Notes under the pieces: generated by a model
Told to the model about the DNA's origin: nothing
Database searches by the model: none
The model's input: the letters and a program-made list of their open reading frames with translations, nothing else
Origin: Algorimicrobium echini
GTDB lineage: Bacteria; Bacteroidota; Bacteroidia; Flavobacteriales; Flavobacteriaceae
Assembly (NCBI RefSeq): GCF_900115185.1
Contig: NZ_FOVN01000003.1
Location: forward strand, 86,511 to 150,510
DNA: 64,000 nucleotides
Direction of reading: 5' to 3'
Translations under genes and position numbers: made by a program
In this document: piece by piece, positions 2,921 through 33,726 of the stretch
Numbering within the stretch: position 1 is the stretch's first letter
Layout of the letters: every line of letters starts with the position of its first letter

Positions 2921-3217
2921 CTAACGAAGCACTATTTCCTTAATAATTTGCTTCCCTAGATGATCATTCAGCATCGTTACAATTTTTTCTTTTCCGTAGC
3001 TTAACTCCTCCCGAAGCACGCTAGAACTTAATTGAACATATAATATTTCACCTTTTAACTGAATAGCAGTTGTGTAATTATTGACACCATTTCCCATCAT
3101 GTTTTGCCAAGCATCTTGAACGTTTATGGCATTTAGCCCTTGTTCCAATCTGTTGGTTTCTACAAATTCTTTTAAAGCGTCAGCAATGGATAAATTTTCG
3201 TTATTTCGTTTGGCCAT
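2921..3217 (-). CDS. DUF721 (DciA-like) protein
   Basis: A 98-residue protein of the DUF721 family. DciA members of this family are known to act on the replicative helicase DnaB in bacteria lacking DnaC or DnaI. The core pattern is visible: an N-terminal helix (IADALKEFVETNRLEQGLN), then the tryptophan segment VQDAWQNMMG, then a beta-rich half with LYVQLSSSVLREEL and a C-terminal helix. It lies at the end of a recF-lipoprotein-DUF721 minus-strand run with 31 bases to its upstream neighbour. The replication link with recF is consistent with the family. A direct helicase role here is inference. Confidence 0.82.
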   Translation of the reverse strand: MAKRNNENLSIADALKEFVETNRLEQGLNAINVQDAWQNMMGNGVNNYTTAIQLKGEILYVQLSSSVLREELSYGKEKIVTMLNDHLGKQIIKEIVLR

Positions 3218-3248
3218 ATGTTTTATCCACGATGGTGGAACTCTGTTT

Positions 3249-3680
3249 TTAATTAATATTTATGGGTTTGTAGCGCTTGTACAAAAATATCGCGTTGTTT
3301 TTATTTATTACCTTTAATTGATTTTTCGTGGCTAGTAAAACCGTTTCTTTCCAAGTATCAAATGGTGTTTTATAGTACACGTTCATGCTGTCATTTTCAA
3401 TTTTTATGGTAAAGTTTTCTGCATCTTTGGATGTTTCAAAAGTACCCATAAAATTGGGTTTCATTTTTTTTCGAATGCCTGTTTGAGAATCTTCTAAACT
3501 AATAAAATCTACGGTGTCATTATAAGAATACTCTTTGGTACTCCCGTCATTTAATATAACACGCTCAATTTCCCAATACCCTTCTAAATGTTCCAAATAG
3601 TCTTCGGGATTATTAGTGCAACCAGATAAAACCATCATCAGAACTAGGAGAGTGGTAATTTTTTGAAGTTTCTGTATCAT
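3249..3680 (-). CDS. Small lipoprotein, unknown function
   Basis: 143 residues. The N terminus is a lipoprotein signal with hydrophobic core and lipobox VLSGC (Cys21). The mature part starts with EGYWEIERVILNDG, and later strands (MKPNFMGTFETS, MNVYYKTPFDTWKE) suggest a small lipocalin-like beta barrel as in many Bacteroidota lipoproteins. It sits between recF and DUF721 with short gaps (14 and 31 bases) and is probably cotranscribed, although no link to DNA metabolism can be read from its sequence. Function unassigned. Confidence 0.75.
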   Translation of the reverse strand: MIQKLQKITTLLVLMMVLSGCTNNPEDYLEHLEGYWEIERVILNDGSTKEYSYNDTVDFISLEDSQTGIRKKMKPNFMGTFETSKDAENFTIKIENDSMNVYYKTPFDTWKETVLLATKNQLKVINKNNAIFLYKRYKPININ

Positions 3681-17333: not shown

Positions 17334-17381
17334 TTAAAAACTTAAAAACTTAAAAACTTAAAAACTTAAAAACTTAAAAAC
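17334..17381 (+). repeat. Six tandem copies of the octamer TTAAAAAC
   Basis: Six perfect copies with an 8-base period end exactly at the first base before the TGAT palindrome. The A5 runs recur every 8 rather than 10-11 bases, so they are not phased with the helix. The array could work as an UP-like AT element or as a slippage-prone spacer. Confidence 0.9.
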
Positions 17382-17393
17382 TGATAATTATCA
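17382..17393 (+). promoter_or_regulatory. Candidate Crp/Fnr-family activator site
   Basis: The perfect 12-base palindrome TGATAATTATCA has the core TGAT-N4-ATCA of Fnr-type sites (consensus TTGAT-N4-ATCAA). It is centred at 17387.5, about 41 bases before the start point expected from the -7 element at 17417-17424, which is the class II activator position. There is no -33 element, as expected for an activator-dependent promoter. The cognate regulator is not in the window. Confidence 0.6.
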
Positions 17394-17416
17394 TATTACA
17401 GGCTTACATGGTTATT

Positions 17417-17424
17417 TATCTTTG
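17417..17424 (+). promoter_or_regulatory. nirK: -7 promoter element of the nirK operon
   Basis: TATCTTTG fits TAnnTTTG. It lies between the TGAT palindrome and the inverted repeat at 17431-17454. Expected start point is near 17428. Confidence 0.6.
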
Positions 17425-17430
17425 AACTGT

Positions 17431-17454
17431 AATTAGGATAAAGTTATCCGAATT
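17431..17454 (+). promoter_or_regulatory. Candidate Rrf2/NsrR operator at nirK
   Basis: Arms AATTAGGATAA and TTATCCGAATT, separated by two bases, pair at 10 of 11 positions. The site covers about +3 to +26 of the predicted nirK transcript, a repressor position. The same element (TAGGATAAA, three bases, TATCCGAA) recurs before ric, and a related copy precedes the Rrf2 regulator gene. Confidence 0.65.
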
Positions 17455-17462
17455 AAAGCAAA

Positions 17463-18956
17463 ATGAAAACACTAATTAATTATTATACGATTATGAAAAC
17501 ACAAAAAAGTATGAATCGCGTTTATCCAATGATTTTATTGTTGGTTTTTACAGTATTTTTAATGGGATGCATGAACAACGAGAAAACAGTTTATGATAAA
17601 GCGGAAGATATTCCAGTTAGTCAGGAAATGATTGCGGAATTAACATCACCACCACATGTGCCTACTCCTGTTGGAGCAAGAAAAGCAAAAAAACTGATTG
17701 TTAAAATGGAGATATTGGAAGAAGAAGGAGAAATGACCGATGGTGTAAAATATGTGTATTGGACATTTGGAGGTACCGTTCCAGGTAGTTTTATACGAAC
17801 ACGTGTAGGAGATGAAGTCGAATTTCATTTACAAAACCACCCAGATAATAAATTACCTCACAATATCGATTTACATGCTGTAACGGGACCAGGAGGCGGA
17901 GCAGAGTCTTCATTTGTGGCGCCAGGTCATGAAAAAGTTTTTTCTTTTAAAACATTAAATCCAGGATTGTATGTGTATCACTGTGCAACTGCTCCAGTTG
18001 GAATGCATATAGCAAATGGTATGTATGGTTTGATATTGGTAGAGCCAGAAGGAGGGTTACCTCCAGTAGATAAAGAATACTACATAATGCAAGGCGATTT
18101 TTATACCAAAGGCGCTAATGGTGAACGTGGTTTACAGCCTTTTGATATGCAAAAAGCGGTTGATGAAAAAGCAGATTATGTGGTTTTTAATGGTAAAGTG
18201 GGTGCCTTAACAGGCGATAATGCTATTACAGCAAAAGTAGGAGAAACGGTTCGTTTGTTTGTTGGTAATGGTGGACCAAATCTGGTATCTTCATTTCATG
18301 TAATTGGAGAAATATTTGATAAAGTACATGTAGAAGGTGGCGATATGATAAACGAAAATGTTCAAACAACATTGGTTCCTGCTGGTGGTGCTGCTATTGT
18401 TGAGTTTCGCGTTGATGTTCCTGGAACCTTTATTCTAGTAGATCACTCCATATTTAGAGCTTTTAACAAAGGTGCTTTAGGGATGTTGAAAGTAGAAGGT
18501 GAAGAGGATACTAAAATTTATTCTGGCGAAATTCGTGATGATATTTATTTACCAGAAGGACCAGGCATTCAAAGTATGCCAACTACAGACGAAATCGTAG
18601 AATCCGAGATTCCAGCTAAATCATTTGAAGAGCAAATGGAATATGGTAAGCAAACCTATATGCAAACATGCTTTGCTTGCCATCAAGCAGAGGGTCAAGG
18701 TGTGCCAAATGCATTTCCGCCTTTGGCTAAATCAGATTATCTCAATGCAGATGTAGATCGCGCTATTGGTGTTGTACTTCACGGATTAACTGGAGAAATA
18801 ACTGTTAATGGTGAAAAATACAATAGTGTAATGACCAGACAAACCTTATCTCCAGATGAAGTTGCTAACGTTTTAACCTATGTGTATAATAGTTGGGGTA
18901 ACTCTAAAAAAGTGGTTACAAAAGAAATGGTAATGAAAGTTAAAAATCAAAAATAA
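17463..18956 (+). CDS. nirK: Copper nitrite reductase NirK, lipoprotein with C-terminal cytochrome c
   Basis: Reduces nitrite to NO at the cell envelope. 497 residues. The signal peptide ends in a lipobox (LMGC, Cys36). Two cupredoxin domains carry the full ligand set: His133, Cys174, His182 and Met187 for type 1 copper; His138, His173 and His328 for type 2 copper; Asp136 and His279 as catalytic pair. The spacing matches classical NirK almost exactly. A class I cytochrome c domain follows with CFACH at 403-407 and probable axial Met457, so electrons can enter through the heme. An ATG at 17493 would give a more usual signal peptide and is an alternative start. First gene of a four-gene operon. 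Confidence 0.95.
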
Positions 18957-18961
18957 TAATT

Positions 18962-19741
18962 ATGAAAACCCAGGCCTTTAGATTGTTACTTGTTTTATTA
19001 GTTTTTCAATCGGTTGTTTTTGCACAATCTGAAGGCATGGTATTCATTGAGGGAAGCCGTTATATTCCCCTTTACGGAAGAGATTCAACCGTTGTGGAAG
19101 TTAAGGATTTTGAAATGGATATTTATCCGGTTACGAATTCTGAATACATGGATTTTGTAACAAAATATCCAAAGTGGCAAAAATCTAAAGCCTTAAAATT
19201 GTTTACCGATAAAAGCTACTTGGCTAATTGGAAAAACGATTTAGAGTTTAAAGATTCTGAACACCCTAACAGTCCAGTAACCTATGTTTCTTGGTTTGCT
19301 GCTAAAGACTATTGTGAATGTCAAGGCAAACGGTTACCTACTGTAGACGAATGGGAGTATGTTGCAATGGCAGACCAAACAACTAAAGATGCTCGTGTAA
19401 AACCATCATATAATGAGCAAATATTAGCATGGTATGAAGCTCCAAGGTCTAACGAAAATTCCATTGGACAAAATCCTAAAAATGTTTGGGGAGTGCACGA
19501 TTTACATGGCCTAGTTTGGGAGTGGACTATGGATTTTAATTCGGTATTAATTACAGGCGAATCTCGCAAGGACGTAGATAAAGACAGCAATTTATTTTGT
19601 GGAAGTGCTGCCGTAAACGCAACCGATTTAATGAATTATGCCGCTTTTATGCGTTATGCAATTCGCGGGAGTTTAAAAGCAAAATATTCCATGAAAAATT
19701 TGGGCTTTCGCTGTGTGAAAGATACCAACAAAATAAATTAA
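18962..19741 (+). CDS. nirV: NirV-like formylglycine-generating-enzyme-family protein
   Basis: 259 residues with signal peptide (LLLVLLVFQSVVFAQ) and one FGE-sulfatase (SUMF1-like) domain: MDIYPVTNSEYMDFV, VTYVSWFAAKDYCEC, KRLPTVDEWEYVA, VHDLHGLVWEWTMDF and AIRGSLKAKY near the end with LGFRCV. NirV proteins of this family are known neighbours of nirK in several denitrifiers. Their role in maturation is unsettled. Five bases after nirK and two before the SCO gene. True formylglycine activity is doubtful, and no sulfatase is nearby. Confidence 0.85.
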   Translation: MKTQAFRLLLVLLVFQSVVFAQSEGMVFIEGSRYIPLYGRDSTVVEVKDFEMDIYPVTNSEYMDFVTKYPKWQKSKALKLFTDKSYLANWKNDLEFKDSEHPNSPVTYVSWFAAKDYCECQGKRLPTVDEWEYVAMADQTTKDARVKPSYNEQILAWYEAPRSNENSIGQNPKNVWGVHDLHGLVWEWTMDFNSVLITGESRKDVDKDSNLFCGSAAVNATDLMNYAAFMRYAIRGSLKAKYSMKNLGFRCVKDTNKIN

Positions 19742-19743
19742 AA

Positions 19744-20457
19744 ATGAAAACACTAAAATATATTATGGTATCACTTTTTGCTATTCTAGCGTTAGAAAGT
19801 TGCCAATCAGATAAAAAAAGTTCAGCTCAAATTACCGAAGTATACCAATGCCCTATGCAATGTGAGGGTGATAAAACATATCATGAATTTGGTAGCTGCC
19901 CTATTTGTAAAATGGACTTAAAAGCAGTAGATAACACTTTAAAAAAAACTATCAATGAAGGTATTTCAGATGCATCAATTTTCAATTTAACATCTCAATG
20001 GCACACAGAAGAAAACCAAGTAATCCACTTGGAAGATTTAAAAGGAAAAACCTTGGTTATGGTTATGATTTATACATCATGTAAAGCAGCTTGTCCAAGG
20101 TTAGTTGCTGACATGAGAAATATTGAAGCTCAAATTCCTGATAACAAAATTAAAGATATCCAATTTGTTATGGTAAGTATTGACCCAGAAACGGACACAC
20201 CAGAACGTTTAAAAGCTTTTGCTGTAGAAAATATTATGGATGATGAACAATGGACGTTTTTGCAAGGAACTGAAAGCAGTGTTAGAGAATTTGCTAATGT
20301 ATTATCTGTTAAGTATAAAGAAATTTCACCGATAGATTTTTCACACTCCAATATTATTTCGGTTTTCAATGCGCAAGGAGAACTGATGCATCAACAAGAA
20401 GGTTTGGGAGTTGATAATAAGGAAACAATCCAAACAATTTTGCAAGTAACCCCATAA
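19744..20457 (+). CDS. SCO1/SenC copper chaperone with N-terminal heavy-metal-binding domain
   Basis: 237 residues from the ATG at 19744. A longer frame starting inside nirV exists but would add 49 unrelated residues ahead of an obvious lipoprotein signal (LALESC, Cys20). Residues 33-60 form a heavy-metal-binding motif, YQCPMQCEG and CPICKMDLK. The SCO thioredoxin-like domain follows with CKAAC (Cys113, Cys117) and His201 in DFSHSN, the copper(I) ligands of the family. It likely supplies copper to NirK, given its place in the operon; a cytochrome oxidase client is also possible. Confidence 0.9.
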   Translation: MKTLKYIMVSLFAILALESCQSDKKSSAQITEVYQCPMQCEGDKTYHEFGSCPICKMDLKAVDNTLKKTINEGISDASIFNLTSQWHTEENQVIHLEDLKGKTLVMVMIYTSCKAACPRLVADMRNIEAQIPDNKIKDIQFVMVSIDPETDTPERLKAFAVENIMDDEQWTFLQGTESSVREFANVLSVKYKEISPIDFSHSNIISVFNAQGELMHQQEGLGVDNKETIQTILQVTP

Positions 20458-20510
20458 ATGAAATAAGTTTTCTGGCATGTAAATCGTCATGCAATGTAAA
20501 TGAGAATCGT

Positions 20511-21776
20511 ATGAAAAGAATTGTAATTGTCATACTCCTTGGAGTAATGAAACAGACCCTTTTTGCTCAAAATTTTGAAATTTCAGCAGCGGTTAGACCT
20601 CGCTTTGAATACAGACATGGCTACAAAACCTTGAAGGTGGATTCGCTGGACGCTGCCTCTTTTGTATCGCAACGAACCCGATTAAATTTCGCTTATGGTA
20701 GTGAGAAAATCAATGCCTATATCAGTATTCAAGATGTGCGTGTTTGGGGTGATGTACCTACTTTAAATACCGCTGATAATAATGGAACAGCCATCCATGA
20801 AGCTTGGGCAGAATTACTATTAACACCAAAATTCTCATTGAAATTAGGACGACAGGAAATCTCTTATGATGACGAACGAATATTTGGAGCTGTTGGTTGG
20901 GCACAACAGGCTAGAAGTCATGATGCTTTATTGGCAATTTATAAACCAAATTCTAACAACCAATTTGAATTGGGTTTAGCGCTTAATGCCAATTCAGAAA
21001 GTGTTTTTGAAACTATTTACACGTTAAATAACTACAAGTCCATGCAATACATTTGGTATCACACAAAGCTATCACCATTAGATTTAAGTGTTTTAGCACT
21101 TAATAACGGATTGGCTTTTATAGAAAATGGTAAACAAGAAGTAGACTATAACCAAACATTTGGTGCGCATGCAAAACTGGATCCAAGTCCGTTTAATGTA
21201 GAAGCATCACTGTATTTTCAGACAGGAAAAATTGCTAACCGAAAGGTTCAAGCTTATAACGCCTCCATTTATGGATCTTACACTTTTAAAAATGGATTAA
21301 AACCAGGTTTGGGTGTTGAGTATCTTTCAGGAACCGATATGGATGCAACCAACTCCCATATTAATTCCTTTAACCCATGGTATGGAACCAACCATAAGTT
21401 TAATGGTTTGATGGATTATTTTTATGTTGGAAACCATATTAATTCTGTTGGGCTGGTTGATGTATATGCCAATCTAACATATAGTACTGAAACGTTTTCA
21501 GTTTCCGTAATGCCACACATGTTTTCATCTGCTGCAACAATAACCAATTCATTAAATAATGAAATGGATTCCTATTTAGGTACCGAAATTGATGCTACAA
21601 TAACTTACAAATGGACAAAAAGTGTGAGTTTTCAAGCAGGCTATTCTCAAATGTTTGCAACAGAAAGCATGGCTGTTTTAAAAGGCGGAAATCCGCATGC
21701 AACAAATAATTGGGCTTGGGCTATGATTACTATAAAACCTAGTTTATTTAAAACAAATTTAAAATTTAGCGAATAG
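20511..21776 (+). CDS. Alginate-export-family outer-membrane porin
   Basis: 421 residues with a signal peptide ending TLFAQ and a beta-barrel body of repeated amphipathic strands. The opening (ISAAVRPRFEYRHGY, SQRTRLNFAYGS) and WAELLLTPKFSLKLGRQEI are typical of the alginate_exp family (AlgE-like). It is the last gene of the nirK operon, 53 bases after the SCO gene. It may admit nitrite or another anion, but that is inferred only from position. Confidence 0.82.
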   Translation: MKRIVIVILLGVMKQTLFAQNFEISAAVRPRFEYRHGYKTLKVDSLDAASFVSQRTRLNFAYGSEKINAYISIQDVRVWGDVPTLNTADNNGTAIHEAWAELLLTPKFSLKLGRQEISYDDERIFGAVGWAQQARSHDALLAIYKPNSNNQFELGLALNANSESVFETIYTLNNYKSMQYIWYHTKLSPLDLSVLALNNGLAFIENGKQEVDYNQTFGAHAKLDPSPFNVEASLYFQTGKIANRKVQAYNASIYGSYTFKNGLKPGLGVEYLSGTDMDATNSHINSFNPWYGTNHKFNGLMDYFYVGNHINSVGLVDVYANLTYSTETFSVSVMPHMFSSAATITNSLNNEMDSYLGTEIDATITYKWTKSVSFQAGYSQMFATESMAVLKGGNPHATNNWAWAMITIKPSLFKTNLKFSE

Positions 21777-21815
21777 CAACAATGTGTTCGGTTAATAGTT
21801 TAGTTGACTATTCGT

Positions 21816-22277
21816 TTATTTCCAAAATTCATCAGTTATATTGTCTTTAAAAGATTCTGGCTGGTGAATTTTTTCAATATATTGAAGCTGCGCTTCTGAA
21901 GCCACTTTTTGAATTTCAGGAAATAAAATGCGTTCCTCAAAACGGATATGTTTCTCCAATTCTTCTTCAATTTTATTTAATGATTTTTCTAAATTAGGCT
22001 CTTTGGTAAATAAACGTTTTAAACGTCTATGATCTGCTAGCGCTTTTTTTACTAACTCATTATCGGAATCTAGAATGGTAAATATTTCAGTTTCTTCTAA
22101 TTCAAAATGAGGAATTAAATGATTTTCAAAAAACCAGTCTGCGTAGGATTTTATACGGTCAGCTGATACGTTTTTACTAAAGCCAGATCTTATTTTCCAG
22201 GATAATAATAAACCATGATGATGTTCTCTACTCAATGGCTGCAAAGCTTTATGACGTTTAAGAGGTTTCTGTTCCAT
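21816..22277 (-). CDS. Hemerythrin-domain protein
   Basis: 153 residues forming a four-helix bundle with the diiron ligand pattern of hemerythrins: REHHHGLLLSWKIR, HLIPHFELEETEIF, DHRRLKRLF and HIRFEERILFPEIQ. Its start lies 20 bases inside the upstream membrane-protein gene, so the two are translationally linked. Family members bind O2 or NO or donate iron. Next to Ric and NirK, an NO or iron role is likely. Confidence 0.88.
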   Translation of the reverse strand: MEQKPLKRHKALQPLSREHHHGLLLSWKIRSGFSKNVSADRIKSYADWFFENHLIPHFELEETEIFTILDSDNELVKKALADHRRLKRLFTKEPNLEKSLNKIEEELEKHIRFEERILFPEIQKVASEAQLQYIEKIHQPESFKDNITDEFWK

Positions 22278-23460
22278 AATGTTTTTGTTTAAAATAACTG
22301 ATTAAAATAAGTGCTATACTAACGGGAAGGAGCATACTGACTACAAATAAAATTAGATAATAATTGGGTAAAAGGCCAATACCTAAATAGTAAAAAGCAC
22401 CTTGAATAAATAAAATAGTTTCGGTTAAAATAAAACCAAGTAAAAATAAGGGTAATCCAATAGAAATATAAGGACTTGGTTGAATAGTTTTAGACTGTAT
22501 TAAAAAGGCAAATAAAAAACCACTTATAACACCTAACATAGTTAAGTGAATGAACCCAATAATAAAATTGTGATGTTCAAATAATTCTGATGAAAATTGT
22601 GGAATTATAGATAAAGTTTGCAAGGCTATTTTAGTTATAAAACATCCTAACGAAAACTGATACATCCTAATTACCAGTTTAGGTGAGTTGTCTTTAAAAG
22701 TTTGAAATTTAGGTTTTATAATTTTTATAAAATAGTAAAGTGAAACGATTTGTAAGAAGATGCCTAACCCGTTAATCCAATAGAGTAGTAGATGGTTTGC
22801 AAACCATTGTATTGGTAAAGCAAAGGTTAAAATAGTAGCTAAAATAATGTATTTAAAGAATGCTTTTGCGTTTTCGGACCATTCAATCTGTAATTGATGG
22901 CAGGCTATGGCTACAACGCCAAGGAGGAACCAGCCATTAAATTGAAAGTTTAAAAAAAACTGAATTGCAATTTGATAAAAAGCAGATGCTTGACCTAATA
23001 AACCAACGGCTGGACCTAAACACCAAACACCAAAAGTGGACAATACCATGAATATTAATGATGCTTTAACTACATGTTTTACAAGTATGTTTTGAATGTG
23101 CAGATCTTTCCAAATCAGATACACAAAGTAATAACTACAAAAAATATGTAATGTTGAAAAGCCAATTGAGATAGCAGCATACCCTTGAAGCGGAAAACTA
23201 ATCATCATACCAATAACAGCAATCTGTGTCACCCAAAACAATTTAGTATAAATCAGTTTATTTTCTGAAACAAAATAATAAGAAAAAAGAGTATACAACA
23301 TTAAATATGCCCAGCCCAACATAGCAACATGAGAATGAGCATGAGTAAGAAACCGATAATTAATAGCAATAGGATTTACAGATACATAGCGCAACGTTAA
23401 ACCCATTAGCGCTGCAATTAAGAAATTGACTAAACAGATTAGGACTCGGTTTTTAGGCAT
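22258..23460 (-). CDS. Polytopic membrane protein, heme-copper-oxidase-like or NnrS-like
   Basis: 400 residues with about eleven or twelve hydrophobic helices and no soluble domain. Near the second helix it has three closely spaced histidines (THAHSHVAMLGW, His40, His42, His44). Near residue 310 there is a second His-containing helix (IIGFIHLTMLGVISG). This resembles the heme-ligating helices of heme-copper oxidase subunit I or NnrS, but the full ligand set of NorB cannot be established by eye. It overlaps the hemerythrin gene and neighbours ric, which suggests a part in NO handling. Exact function open. Confidence 0.6.
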   Translation of the reverse strand: MPKNRVLICLVNFLIAALMGLTLRYVSVNPIAINYRFLTHAHSHVAMLGWAYLMLYTLFSYYFVSENKLIYTKLFWVTQIAVIGMMISFPLQGYAAISIGFSTLHIFCSYYFVYLIWKDLHIQNILVKHVVKASLIFMVLSTFGVWCLGPAVGLLGQASAFYQIAIQFFLNFQFNGWFLLGVVAIACHQLQIEWSENAKAFFKYIILATILTFALPIQWFANHLLLYWINGLGIFLQIVSLYYFIKIIKPKFQTFKDNSPKLVIRMYQFSLGCFITKIALQTLSIIPQFSSELFEHHNFIIGFIHLTMLGVISGFLFAFLIQSKTIQPSPYISIGLPLFLLGFILTETILFIQGAFYYLGIGLLPNYYLILFVVSMLLPVSIALILISYFKQKHYGTETS

Positions 23461-23485
23461 TCATTAATAGGTTTTAAATAAAAAA

Positions 23486-23568
23486 ACACGTCTCTTGTTG
23501 AAACCATAACTTACAATAAATATTCCCTCTAATAAAATATGTATTTGTAAAATTAACAAGAGACGTGT
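23486..23568. promoter_or_regulatory. Long-range perfect inverted repeat upstream of the membrane-protein gene
   Basis: ACACGTCTCTTGTT at 23486-23499 and its exact complement at 23555-23568, with 55 bases between. It lies 26-108 bases before the start of the 400-residue membrane protein, in its leader or promoter. No T tract follows the stem, so it is not an ordinary terminator. A paired regulator site or a structured 5' leader are the main options. Confidence 0.6.
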
Positions 23569-23604
23569 AAAATTAAACAAACTATTAACTACTAATTTTA
23601 GTAA

Positions 23605-23636
23605 AACTGGAAGATAAATTACTTTAACTTCCAGTT
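23605..23636 (-). terminator. Probable terminator of ric
   Basis: Read on the minus strand, AACTGGAAG and CTTCCAGTT form a 9-bp stem with a 14-base loop, followed by TTTTACTAAAATT. It lies 26 bases past the ric stop. Confidence 0.6.
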
Positions 23637-23661
23637 ATTGAAAATAACAAGTGCTATTAAT

Positions 23662-24399
23662 TTATTCTGCGAAAAAGCGCTGCTCCAATTTGGCAGCTTC
23701 TGGGAATAAGATGTTATTTTCCAAGTGGATATGCAGATGTAAATCCTTCTCAAACTCCTCTAACATAGCAAACGTTACTTTATACGTATTACATGCATCT
23801 GCTGGAGGTGTATAATTATTTGTTATTAATGCTATTTTTCTAAATCGTTCGCCTTCATTGTCATGTTCTTCCATCATCATAGCAATTGGGTTTTCAACGG
23901 TTCCAAAATGTGGTGCTTCAATAGCTTGACCATCTAATGAGGCCTTTACCATTTTTTTAATGAATGGAAAAAGTATTAATTCTTCTTTTTTCATATGTGC
24001 AGACAATTCACCAGCACTACCTGTAAAGAGTTCATTAATTTTAAATAACTCCGGATGATTACCTCCATGAACGCGACATAGTTTATCTAAAAACTGGCGC
24101 AGTACAGGAATTTTTTCTTCAACATATCGGTGGTGAGTTTTCTCAATATAATCTGCAAGTAAATCTAGAGGCCAGGATTTATAGTCAATTGCATTATTAC
24201 TGTTAGAATTTAAAACGGCGTCTAGTTTATTTAATAATTCATCAGGGTTTACACCATTTTTATTACAAACTTCTTCAACAGTTCGGTGTCCTTTACAGCA
24301 AAAATCTATTCCATAGTTACTAAATACGGCAGCGGTTCTGAAGTCATCGGCAACAAATTCACCAATGGGTTTACTCAAGTTTTTATGTAATGTTTCCAT
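23662..24399 (-). CDS. ric: Iron-sulfur cluster repair di-iron protein (Ric/ScdA/YtfE)
   Basis: 245 residues. The N-terminal ScdA_N/DUF542 domain has DFCCKGHRTVEEVC with the Cys34-Cys35 pair. The C-terminal hemerythrin-like diiron domain shows HHRYVEEKIPVL, HGGNHPELFK, HMKKEELILFPF, MMEEHDNEGERF and HIHLENNILFPEA. It restores Fe-S clusters damaged by NO or peroxide. It lies directly downstream of the Rrf2 regulator gene, with its own copy of the shared operator 13-33 bases before the start codon. Confidence 0.94.
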   Translation of the reverse strand: METLHKNLSKPIGEFVADDFRTAAVFSNYGIDFCCKGHRTVEEVCNKNGVNPDELLNKLDAVLNSNSNNAIDYKSWPLDLLADYIEKTHHRYVEEKIPVLRQFLDKLCRVHGGNHPELFKINELFTGSAGELSAHMKKEELILFPFIKKMVKASLDGQAIEAPHFGTVENPIAMMMEEHDNEGERFRKIALITNNYTPPADACNTYKVTFAMLEEFEKDLHLHIHLENNILFPEAAKLEQRFFAE

Positions 24400-24411
24400 A
24401 CTCTTATTTTT

Positions 24412-24432
24412 ATTTCGGATATTTTTATCCTA
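24412..24432 (-). promoter_or_regulatory. Candidate Rrf2/NsrR operator at ric
   Basis: On the minus strand it reads TAGGATAAA, three bases, TATCCGAA. The inner GGATA and TATCC arms are perfect, with four bases between. It lies just before the ric start codon. Apart from the middle bases it matches the nirK site almost base for base. Confidence 0.65.
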
Positions 24433-24462
24433 TTTATAATTAAATTTTTTTATAATATTTTT

Positions 24463-24897
24463 TTAAATCTTTAGAAAGGATGCACCTGCTTTAATATCAA
24501 GTGCTAGTTCTTCCAGGTTTGTTGTTTCAAGCATGATTTTCAAGTCATTACGGATGTCTTTAAATTTATCATGTACTGGACATGGGTGATTTTCATCGCA
24601 GGTATGTAAGCCTAATCCACAGCCGTTATATATTTTATCGCCATCAATAGCCTTTACGATCTGTTCTAATTTAATTTCCGAAATTTGCTTCTTATTTATT
24701 TCAAAACCACCATGGGCTCCTTTAACAGAGTTAATGATGTTATGTCTTGCTAAATCTTGCAGAATTTTGGCCGTAAATGCTTCAGGCGAAGCAATTTCTT
24801 TAGCAATTGCCTTTAAACTCACCCGTTTCTCTTGGTAAGAGTTTAAAGCAATAAAAATGGATGCTTTGATGCCGTATTCACACGCTTTAGAAAACAT
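24463..24897 (-). CDS. Rrf2-family transcriptional regulator, NsrR-like
   Basis: 144 residues. An N-terminal winged helix (SLKAIAKEIASPEAFTAKIL as recognition region, then GAHGGFEI as wing) is followed by a three-cysteine Fe-S site: Cys93 in NGCGLG, Cys100, and Cys106 in CPVH. That spacing is of the NsrR/RsrR kind that binds a cluster and senses NO or redox. It is next to ric and near nirK, and its own promoter contains the shared operator, which suggests autorepression. NsrR is the best guess; IscR is less likely because no isc genes are present. Confidence 0.85.
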   Translation of the reverse strand: MFSKACEYGIKASIFIALNSYQEKRVSLKAIAKEIASPEAFTAKILQDLARHNIINSVKGAHGGFEINKKQISEIKLEQIVKAIDGDKIYNGCGLGLHTCDENHPCPVHDKFKDIRNDLKIMLETTNLEELALDIKAGASFLKI

Positions 24898-24914
24898 AGT
24901 TTAGTTTTATGGTA

Positions 24915-24946
24915 CAAATGTAAAACATATTTTTAATTCAGACAAA
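24915..24946 (-). promoter_or_regulatory. Promoter of the Rrf2 regulator gene
   Basis: On the minus strand, TTTG at 24946-24943 and TACATTTG at 24922-24915 are separated by 20 bases, a textbook Bacteroidota -33/-7 pair. The leader to the ATG at 24897 is only about 14 bases. Confidence 0.65.
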
Positions 24947-24958
24947 TTTATCCGAATT
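24935..24958 (-). promoter_or_regulatory. Candidate Rrf2/NsrR operator overlapping its own -33 box
   Basis: Arms AATTCAGACAA and TTATCCGAATT, two bases apart, match at 9 of 11 positions, and the symmetry extends outward through TTTT and AAAA (24931-24962). It shares TTATCCGAATT with the nirK site and covers the -33 element, as expected for autorepression. Confidence 0.6.
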
Positions 24959-33570: not shown

Positions 33571-33726
33571 TTTTATAGAATAGGAAAGAGGAAACGTATG
33601 TTACAAAGACACATTTATTCTGTTGTATAATTACCTAATTAAGATAATATTTTCTTAAATTAGTAGTAAATCCATTAAATATAAAATGGGTTTGAGGTTT
33701 TAATCAATTAACTAAAATAAAATAAA

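Follow-up and report, generated by a model that had tools for sequence, protein, structure and literature searches.

Results and Discussion

The window, by which we mean the whole stretch of 64,000 nucleotides analysed here, encodes a copper nitrite reductase (nirK), an iron-sulfur cluster repair protein (ric) and an Rrf2-family regulator (rrf2), and carries copies of one palindrome before all three genes. The features of the locus, numbered by window position, are the following.

17382-17393, + strand: Fnr-like activator box of nirK, TGATAATTATCA, 23 nt before the -7 box, a geometry kept in the nirK promoters of 30 of 34 relatives
17417-17424, + strand: -7 box of nirK, TATCTTTG, of the Bacteroidota type TAnnTTTG
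17433-17452, + strand: nirK operator, TTAGGATAAAGTTATCCGAA, pattern and matrix match, its first base 51 nt beyond that of the Fnr-like box
17493-18956, + strand: nirK, copper nitrite reductase with a C-terminal cytochrome c domain (TIGR02376, 355.3 bits, cut-off 296.3; PF00034)
18962-21776, + strand: FGE-sulfatase-domain protein, SCO1/SenC protein with heavy-metal-binding domain and alginate-export/porin-like protein, following nirK
21816-22277, - strand: hemerythrin-domain protein, near ric in many of 79 related loci too
22258-23460, - strand: protein without Pfam or NCBIfam match, by eye a membrane protein, likewise near ric in many of the 79 loci
23662-24399, - strand: ric (ytfE/scdA), iron-sulfur cluster repair di-iron protein (TIGR03652, 247.4 bits, cut-off 204.7)
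24414-24433, - strand: ric operator, ATAGGATAAAAATATCCGAA, pattern and matrix match, conserved in relatives
24441-24448, - strand: possible degenerate -7 box of ric, AAAATTTA (consensus of relatives AAAATTTG), starting 15 nt before the operator
24463-24897, - strand: rrf2, Rrf2-family regulator of 144 aa, probably an Fe-S protein (TIGR00738, PF02082, alignment of 35 sequences)
24915-24922, - strand: -7 box of rrf2, TACATTTG, at the usual distance from TTTG
24937-24956, - strand: rrf2 operator, TTCGGATAAATTTGTCTGAA, pattern match, conserved in relatives; operator positions 11-14 (24943-24946) form the -33 box TTTG

Comparison with start distances in relatives favours 17493 over 17463 as the start of nirK. 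Our comparison sample comprised 79 loci that encode proteins related to this Rrf2 regulator, with the reversed pattern as control, and the order of the genes after nirK is common to many of them.

The operator is a 20-bp palindrome with the consensus WTMRGAYAWNNWTRTCYKAW. A sequence-only reading of this DNA had placed palindromic sites at nirK, ric and rrf2, and all three are present no more than one to two bases from where it put them. Its three-base spacer did not survive, as that form fails at all three places, also with three mismatches allowed; the half-sites are separated by two bases. The overlap that it described between the rrf2 operator and the -33 box is borne out, with TTTG lying inside the operator and TACATTTG following at the usual distance. 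Allowing up to three mismatches, TTMGGATAWNNWTATCCKAA matches the window five times against 0.89 expected, a number reached in none of 100 shuffles. Scored with a matrix trained on the rrf2 and ric sites of relatives, with the window left out, the three sites obtain 26.4, 23.9 and 20.4, the next-best place 15.1 (position 33639) and the reversed window at most 9.4, while a site of at least 20 is present in one of 200 simulated 64-kb sequences. The look-alike at 33639, located before a gene that we named YtxH-like by eye, was dropped because the site is absent in the sole ortholog among the 79 loci (L016; best score -10.9).

The exact degenerate form occurs four times in the genome, always before NO genes, and its reversed control not at all. 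Absence of a fourth copy, as first read, thus holds within the window and fails genome-wide: the fourth lies at C15:179923-179942, 29 kb beyond the window, at the head of a nosZ/copper-receptor cluster. Fourteen further places differ by one mismatch; among the 11 inspected (L014, L095-L104) eight are inside open reading frames, and the three intergenic ones (L101, L102 and L103) precede genes without an evident NO role. Upstream of the organism's own norC, the Fnr-like box described below is present and the operator was not found. Only one match to quinol-type NO reductase was obtained at E ≤1e-10, a 455-aa frame that we judge to be just a cNor-like protein because of its 28% identity.

Lack of conservation in relatives carrying the same genes had been named beforehand as a result that would refute the proposed nirK-ric-rrf2 regulon. 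At up to two mismatches the operator stands upstream of rrf2 in 74/79, of ric in 66/75 and, in part, of nirK in 18/35 cases (controls 4/79, 5/75 and 1/35), which supports the regulon as proposed; it also proved larger, with nos and copper uptake added here. A matrix scan of the 79 loci returned 179 matches against three in reversed sequence, 158 of them at rrf2, ric, nirK or nos and 13 at quinol-type norB. Predicted targets in relatives further include quinol-type and cytochrome-type NO reductases, a truncated globin and flavohemoglobin.

Among the 29 best loci of a phylum-wide search, the operator is found in 24 rrf2 promoters, including eight of the ten outside the family (control 0/29). Twenty lower-scoring rrf2 promoters (L228-L247) gave a score of at least 10 in three cases, 3/9 within the class and 0/11 outside it; the gene start of L237 in this distant set is off by about one base, which makes its operator distance approximate. 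A sample of the family has the site in 16/20 rrf2 promoters, and in 7/16 ric promoters where the Rrf2 protein is present versus 1/13 in genomes without a close Rrf2. A site scoring at least 10 is missing from five of the 29 best phylum promoters and four of the 20 family ones, in L201 and L206 despite an unchanged recognition-helix region, and one genome (G023) has no close Rrf2 match, yet a site of 12.5 before ric. Hymenobacter volaticus carries one copy before rrf2, where the flanks are GC-richer, and another between rrf2 and hmpA. Across 100 family genomes the exact degenerate form matches 46 times versus 29 for the reversed pattern. This raw count is little above chance, so the case depends on where the sites lie: 31 of the 42 exact places in other family genomes are at rrf2 or NO-type genes.

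Promoter architecture

The promoters of nirK, nos and norC share a second element, the Fnr-like box, exactly 23 nt ahead of their -7 boxes; it was not found at the organism's own ric or rrf2. In a search permitting 21-25 nt to the -7 box, the 23-nt arrangement recurred in 30/34 nirK and 11/13 nos upstream regions of relatives, in 0/79 of rrf2 and in 0/75 of ric, with controls at 0. Such a palindromic box at a fixed distance from the -7 box is a feature of Fnr-like class II promoters. As it shares its promoter with this box, nirK is not governed by the Rrf2 operator alone. An operator scoring at least 9 accompanies 40 of 71 Fnr-box promoters, and relative to the box it starts only at -24 to -22 (17 promoters) or at +50 to +54 (23 promoters), nos-type genes having it only at the upstream position. 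With the nirK transcript beginning some 6 nt past the -7 box, as predicted, the nirK operator would span approximately +3 to +22. The -7 box of rrf2 begins 32-35 nt after the operator start in 71/75 operator-bearing loci. Position 14 of the operator is G in 49/74 rrf2 sites versus 5/66 ric sites (nominal Fisher p 1.5e-13), and this G completes the -33 TTTG in the rrf2 operators. For ric, the columns of the possible -7 box are conserved in 65 loci, with the final G in 41/65.

The Rrf2 protein

The regulator belongs to the Rrf2 superfamily (TIGR00738, 85 bits, cut-off 73.3; PF02082, 83.4 bits, cut-off 30). With the NsrR equivalog model of NCBIfam it reaches 27.8 bits, far below the cut-off of 182, and we rejected its classification as NsrR on this score. 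It also stays below the cut-offs of the IscR model (TIGR02010, 52.4 bits versus 207.55) and of the SUF regulator model (57.2 bits). A monomer structure model suggests RsrR, CymR and IscR as the closest folds, with NsrR lower-ranked. What it does share with NsrR is an operator upstream of its own gene and a set of predicted NO-response targets. Its cysteines follow the pattern C93-x6-C100-x5-C106, and these three together with C6 and H109 are invariant among 35 aligned sequences, E7 being nearly so. The NsrR-type three-cysteine Fe-S pattern claimed at first reading is present in the three invariant cysteines, with a spacing one residue longer than that of Cys93/Cys99/Cys105 in Streptomyces NsrR, according to the part of the source used here (PMC5411485). 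H109 follows the third cysteine with two residues in between. A second Rrf2 paralogue of 32% identity (C8:966040) is encoded near norCB-like genes and has a related site (12.3) in its own promoter.

Proposed regulation

We consider it likely, judging from sequence, that the operator belongs to the adjacent Fe-S Rrf2 protein, a repressor of NsrR-like function that would gate Fnr-activated denitrification promoters. A three-cysteine and probably Fe-S-bearing dimer would repress its own gene, ric, nirK and the nosZ/copper-uptake cluster. When NO is absent, the cluster-bearing dimer would occupy RGAYA-N4-TRTCY, a site placed over the -33 box at rrf2, at the beginning of the transcribed region at nirK and ric, and directly before the activator box at nos. 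NO, the presumed signal, would destroy the cluster, whereupon the dimer would leave the DNA and the genes would be expressed. At nirK and nos the Rrf2 protein would act as a second gate, the activator being an Fnr-like protein whose site lies 23 nt ahead of the -7 box, at about -41.5. A candidate for it is encoded at C15:200494 (PF13545, 58.8 bits, N-terminal CEQC). Because of the second gate, full expression of nirK and nos would require little oxygen and NO together; ric and rrf2 would respond to the Rrf2 protein alone.

The same operator could be read by this protein in response to cluster status, iron or redox, as in IscR, RirA or RsrR, instead of NO itself. The IscR and SUF models outscore NsrR, all below cut-off, RsrR, CymR and IscR rank above NsrR in the structure model, and H109 is placed in what we take to be the manner of the IscR histidine ligand. 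The predicted targets, however, are the NO genes nirK, ric, nos, quinol-type norB, hmpA and a truncated globin, and no isc or suf gene was recognised by eye among the downstream proteins, judged from the first residues of each, so that we regard this signal as unlikely. That the Rrf2 protein instead activates, or has a dual role, at sites immediately preceding the Fnr-like box would fit protein contacts at the very tight upstream position (-24 to -22, 17 sites). We find it distinctly unlikely, as sites that follow the -7 box, like those at +50 to +54 and at ric, or that cover the -33 box, like those at rrf2, are in repressing positions.

The reader of the palindrome might also be another protein, either the paralogue near norCB, whose promoter has the related site, or an unrelated regulator, the neighbouring rrf2 being simply a further target. 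This appears very improbable, since this rrf2 has the site well conserved in its own promoter, with little variation in distance, across the family as well as further families of the class, and since the site is mostly absent before ric in genomes without a close Rrf2, even if the latter difference is modest (1/13 versus 7/16). A chance origin of palindromes in AT-rich intergenic DNA is practically negligible and was rejected on the site positions and the reversed-sequence, shuffle and simulation controls. Loose forms are indeed frequent, with 43 genome matches at up to three mismatches, below the 65 of the control, and the family-wide excess of the exact form is small (46 versus 29). Against this stand four matches versus none in the organism's own genome, all at NO genes, the 31/42 family places, the 179 versus three matrix matches and the copies with GC-richer flanks in Hymenobacter.

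A wider reading is, in our estimate, evenly balanced between true and false: the class Bacteroidia would have an NO regulon under a non-NsrR Rrf2 sensor with its own ligand set (Glu7 or Cys6 for Asp8 and a longer Cys loop), which would gate Fnr-activated promoters from only two operator positions and link the detoxification of NO with N2O reduction and the import of copper. Flavobacteria commonly carry clade II nosZ, and the flavobacterial switch for N2O reduction is, to our knowledge, poorly known; if true, the regulon would be a candidate answer for the control of nosR-less clade II nosZ clusters in the phylum. Clade II nos scaffolds in metagenomes are enriched for Rrf2 genes, for which the part of that report considered here gives no operator (PMC6264515). 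Titles and abstract openings, drawn from a literature scope outside which most subscription journals fall, contain no description of the operator or its regulon for Bacteroidota. The operator, the list of targets and the promoter logic are concrete enough for tests in a culturable strain, and the matrix can serve to annotate NO-type genes across the class.

Comparison with known systems

As in NsrR of E. coli, Neisseria, Bacillus and Streptomyces, an Rrf2 protein with three cysteines is associated with a palindromic operator and a site in its own promoter. NsrR regulons include nirK, norB, ric/dnrN and hmp (PMC1274295, in part), and the targets predicted here and in relatives cover nirK, norB, ric and hmp. 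Unlike NsrR, the system has its own 20-bp operator and includes nosZ and copper uptake among its predicted targets. The cysteine spacing is x6/x5 compared with x5/x5 in Streptomyces NsrR, the sole NsrR compared for spacing, where the consulted part of the source gives Asp8 from the partner subunit as fourth ligand (PMC5411485); no Asp is found here, and Glu7 or Cys6 stands at about its place in an alignment by eye.

The predicted fold is closest by E-value to RsrR, a Streptomyces Rrf2 Fe-S regulator (6hsd, TM 0.67), at a sequence identity of 20%. RsrR uses a Glu of its N-terminal region as a cluster ligand, and we know of no denitrification targets of it. It is termed redox-sensitive in the portion of PMC5411485 drawn on.

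HcpR, not NsrR, is named for Bacteroides in the part of PMC1274295 considered, and is like the present protein a nitrogen-oxide regulator predicted in Bacteroidota; unlike it, HcpR is of the FNR-like family, and its regulon in most Bacteroides is given there as consisting of hcp genes alone. The same part of that source gives the DNR box as CTTGATnnnnATCAAG. As in denitrification control by DNR, NnrR or FNR, a TGAY-N4-RTCA box precedes nirK, nos and nor. Unlike in those systems, the box keeps a constant distance of 23 nt to the Bacteroidota -7 box that follows, ric and rrf2 have none, and at nirK and nos it is accompanied by an Rrf2 operator within either of two ranges of position.

Operator copies in the window and in the genome

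A pattern search of the window returned three copies of a 20-bp palindrome, the predicted landing site of the Rrf2 protein:

17433-17452, plus strand, upstream of nirK
24414-24433, minus strand, upstream of ric
24937-24956, minus strand, upstream of rrf2

The sequence-only reading, which had joined these genes into a candidate NO regulon, located the palindromes correctly to within one or two bases, and its gene names were borne out (nirK, TIGR02376; ric, TIGR03652; the third an Rrf2-family regulator). Its three-base spacer has to be replaced: such a pattern misses all three sites even with up to three mismatches, and the half-sites lie 2 bases apart. With the two-base spacer and up to three mismatches, 5 matches were found in the window vs 0.89 expected, a count reached in 0 of 100 shuffles. 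The degenerate form WTMRGAYAWNNWTRTCYKAW matches exactly four times in the 3.31-Mb genome of A. echini, while its reversed pattern gave no match there at zero mismatches. Three of these matches are the window sites and the other lies at C15:179923-179942, 29 kb past the window, so that the earlier remark that there is no fourth copy describes the exact matches in the window but not those in the genome.

A weaker look-alike palindrome at 33639-33658, ahead of a YtxH-like gene, is not conserved in the sole ortholog found (locus L016). The longest nirK frame begins at 17463, start distances of relatives favour 17493, and an 8-base unit (AAAAACTT) is repeated in tandem at about 17335-17381, directly upstream of the nirK Fnr-like box. 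The nirK product carries a cytochrome c domain at its C-terminal end.

Conservation of the operator

Conservation was assessed in 79 loci encoding Rrf2 relatives at 65–94% identity by searching the 250 bp before each gene for sites with at most two mismatches from the degenerate form, using the reversed upstream sequence as control. The operator precedes rrf2 in 74/79 loci (control 4/79), ric in 66/75 (control 5/75) and nirK in 18/35 (control 1/35). A matrix trained on rrf2 and ric sites, 87 of them distinct from one another, with the 10% quantile of the training scores as threshold, gave 179 hits vs 3 in the reversed loci when all 1.54 Mb were scanned, a scan that is partly in-sample. Of the hits, 158 belong to four genes, namely rrf2, ric, nirK and the cytochrome gene of nos; the remaining 21 lie upstream of quinol-type norB (13), of the CNGKC/copper-receptor operon (6) and of a hemerythrin-PAS protein (1), and at a place without a listed gene in locus L056 (1).

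Outside the training set, where some genomes may be of the same species as training loci, 395 genomes of the phylum were searched with the Rrf2 profile, which reached E 1e-35 in 74 of them. The best 29 loci of this search, our own apart, carry an rrf2 promoter site scoring at least 10 in 24 cases (reversed control 0/29), namely 16/19 in the family and 8/10 in other families of the class. Among 20 further, lower-scoring rrf2 promoters, 3 reach this score (controls 0), 3/9 within the class and 0/11 outside it. In the family sample, rrf2 promoters, mostly of genomes without an exact match there, show a site in 16/20 (control 0). Among ric upstream regions it was found in 7/16 from genomes with the Rrf2 vs 1/13 from genomes that lack a close one (no match at all, or at best about 1e-32), a modest difference. 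On a Hymenobacter volaticus plasmid, the gene for a 52% identical regulator stands ahead of hmpA, with one site (score 13.4) 40 nt upstream of rrf2 and a second (score 16.0) between the two genes, both with GC-richer flanks. Plasmids of Acinetobacter (L265, L266) carrying tet(X3) also encode an Rrf2 protein, 56% identical to that of the window, with IS elements and resistance genes nearby and a weak upstream site (score -0.8).

The exact degenerate form occurs at 46 places in 28 genomes of the 100-genome family sample, a bare count only a little above chance level since the reversed pattern gives 29; the positions are more informative. Outside our own genome, 31/42 places belong to NO-type or regulator genes, standing ahead of the copper-receptor operon, a truncated globin, rrf2, ric, norB, norC, nirK or nos, or else following rrf2 immediately within its gene series. 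One, at a contig end adjoining a nosY-like gene (G089), was assigned to neither group, and 10 lie within genes, at contig ends or ahead of genes without an evident NO role (two in G014, one each in G016, G027, G029, G041, G058, G060, G084 and G099).

Promoter architecture

Bacteroidota promoters have consensus -33/-7 boxes. At rrf2, the -7 box TAnnTTTG begins 32–35 nt past the operator start 71 times in the 75 loci with an operator, and in 44/75 the second half of the operator includes the -33 TTG, invariably at one fixed place. The rrf2 copy had looked diverged in the sequence-only reading because its second half carries this TTG. G at operator position 14 occurs in 49/74 rrf2 vs 5/66 ric sites (Fisher p 1.5e-13, a nominal value given the relatedness of the sequences). 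The ric promoters have a conserved AAAATTT(G), beginning 15 nt before the operator; each of its first seven columns is kept in 56–65 of the 65 loci, the G in 41. The layout is similar for downstream nirK operators, which begin 15–19 nt after the -7 box start.

In A. echini, a second element is common to the promoters of nirK, nos and norC: the Fnr-like box TGAY-N4-RTCA, placed exactly 23 nt before TAnnTTTG. With a spacing of 21–25 nt permitted, this pair was found in 30/34 nirK and 11/13 nos upstream regions of the 79 loci, all at 23 nt, and upstream of neither rrf2 (0/79) nor ric (0/75; reversed controls 0). The A. echini genome holds 10 such promoters vs 1 in the control, among them 17382-17424 (nirK) and others on L249 (contig C15) and L254 (contig C8). 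They also precede hemN-, ccoS-ccoN-, hpf-like and copper-receptor genes (named by eye), and the hemN, ccoS-ccoN and hpf types are the usual company of an Fnr regulon. The Fnr-like promoters would form a second, larger regulon; at C15:200494 the genome encodes an Fnr-like protein whose N-terminal part contains CEQC.

The 79 loci hold 71 Fnr-like promoters, against 0 in the reversed control. Searching from -80 to +110 relative to the box, we found an Rrf2 operator scoring at least 9 in 40 of them, and none in the other 31, which include a few nirK and nos promoters. The operators start only at -24 to -22 (17; 10 nos-type, 7 nirK) or +50 to +54 (23; 22 nirK, 1 hemerythrin-PAS gene), and in A. echini at +51 for nirK and -23 for nos. 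Inheritance of a single promoter is one explanation for the shared arrangement; the position data argue against it as the whole explanation, since nirK uses both ranges and nos shares one.

The fourth palindrome, C15:179923-179942, heads a same-strand series of cytochrome c, fasciclin-like protein and nosZ, followed by nosL, nosD, nosF and nosY (named by eye), a small CNGKC protein, a YtkA-like lipoprotein and a TonB-dependent receptor. NosZ was named from a relative's frame (TIGR04246, 404 bits, covering part of the protein only) and similarity by eye. The best model for a relative's receptor, 70% identical to ours, is copper-receptor TIGR01778 at 129 bits, under the cut-off of 472. The CNGKC protein and receptor recur together, in most cases with the lipoprotein, in L249 (10066-13559), L044, L047 and L126/L142; these receptors share a GACTDKMDP stretch and match the copper-receptor model weakly, and in several relatives the operon has an Rrf2 operator of its own.

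The Rrf2 protein and proposed mechanism

Across 35 aligned sequences including that of the window, no variation occurs at C6, C93, C100, C106 or H109, and hardly any at E7. The predicted structure (mean pLDDT 83; residues 91-110 at 59 and 74) matches the folds of RsrR, CymR, IscR and NsrR. The protein stays under the curated cut-offs of both NsrR and IscR; filing it as NsrR was therefore rejected, and we describe it as NsrR-like in predicted function. Orthologs that have the site differ little in their recognition-helix region; in L201 and L206 this region is unchanged, yet these lack the site. A second Rrf2 paralogue (32% identity; L251, contig C8, about 2984-3499), beside norC-norB-norQ/D-like genes (by eye), has a related site (ATAGGACTAAAATATCTTTT, score 12.3) immediately before its -7 box and may be an NO-reductase-specific regulator.

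Most likely, a cluster-bearing Rrf2 dimer would cover the promoter or start region of rrf2 and ric and so repress them, while at nirK and nos it would add an NO gate, opened by NO, on top of an Fnr-type, low-oxygen promoter. The norC promoter of A. echini has the Fnr-like box and no Rrf2 operator, an arrangement that would provide NO reductase at low oxygen ahead of NO build-up.

For proteobacteria, Bacillus and Streptomyces the available part of PMC1274295 predicts regulons of NsrR, and for Bacteroides one of HcpR, and it names no Rrf2 regulon in Bacteroidota; that of PMC6264515 places Rrf2 genes close to clade II nos clusters. According to the accessible sections on Streptomyces NsrR, its site spans 23 bp (PMC9338935), and the protein uses Cys93, Cys99 and Cys105 together with Asp8 from the partner subunit (PMC5411485), compared with C93, C100 and C106 in the Rrf2 protein of the window.
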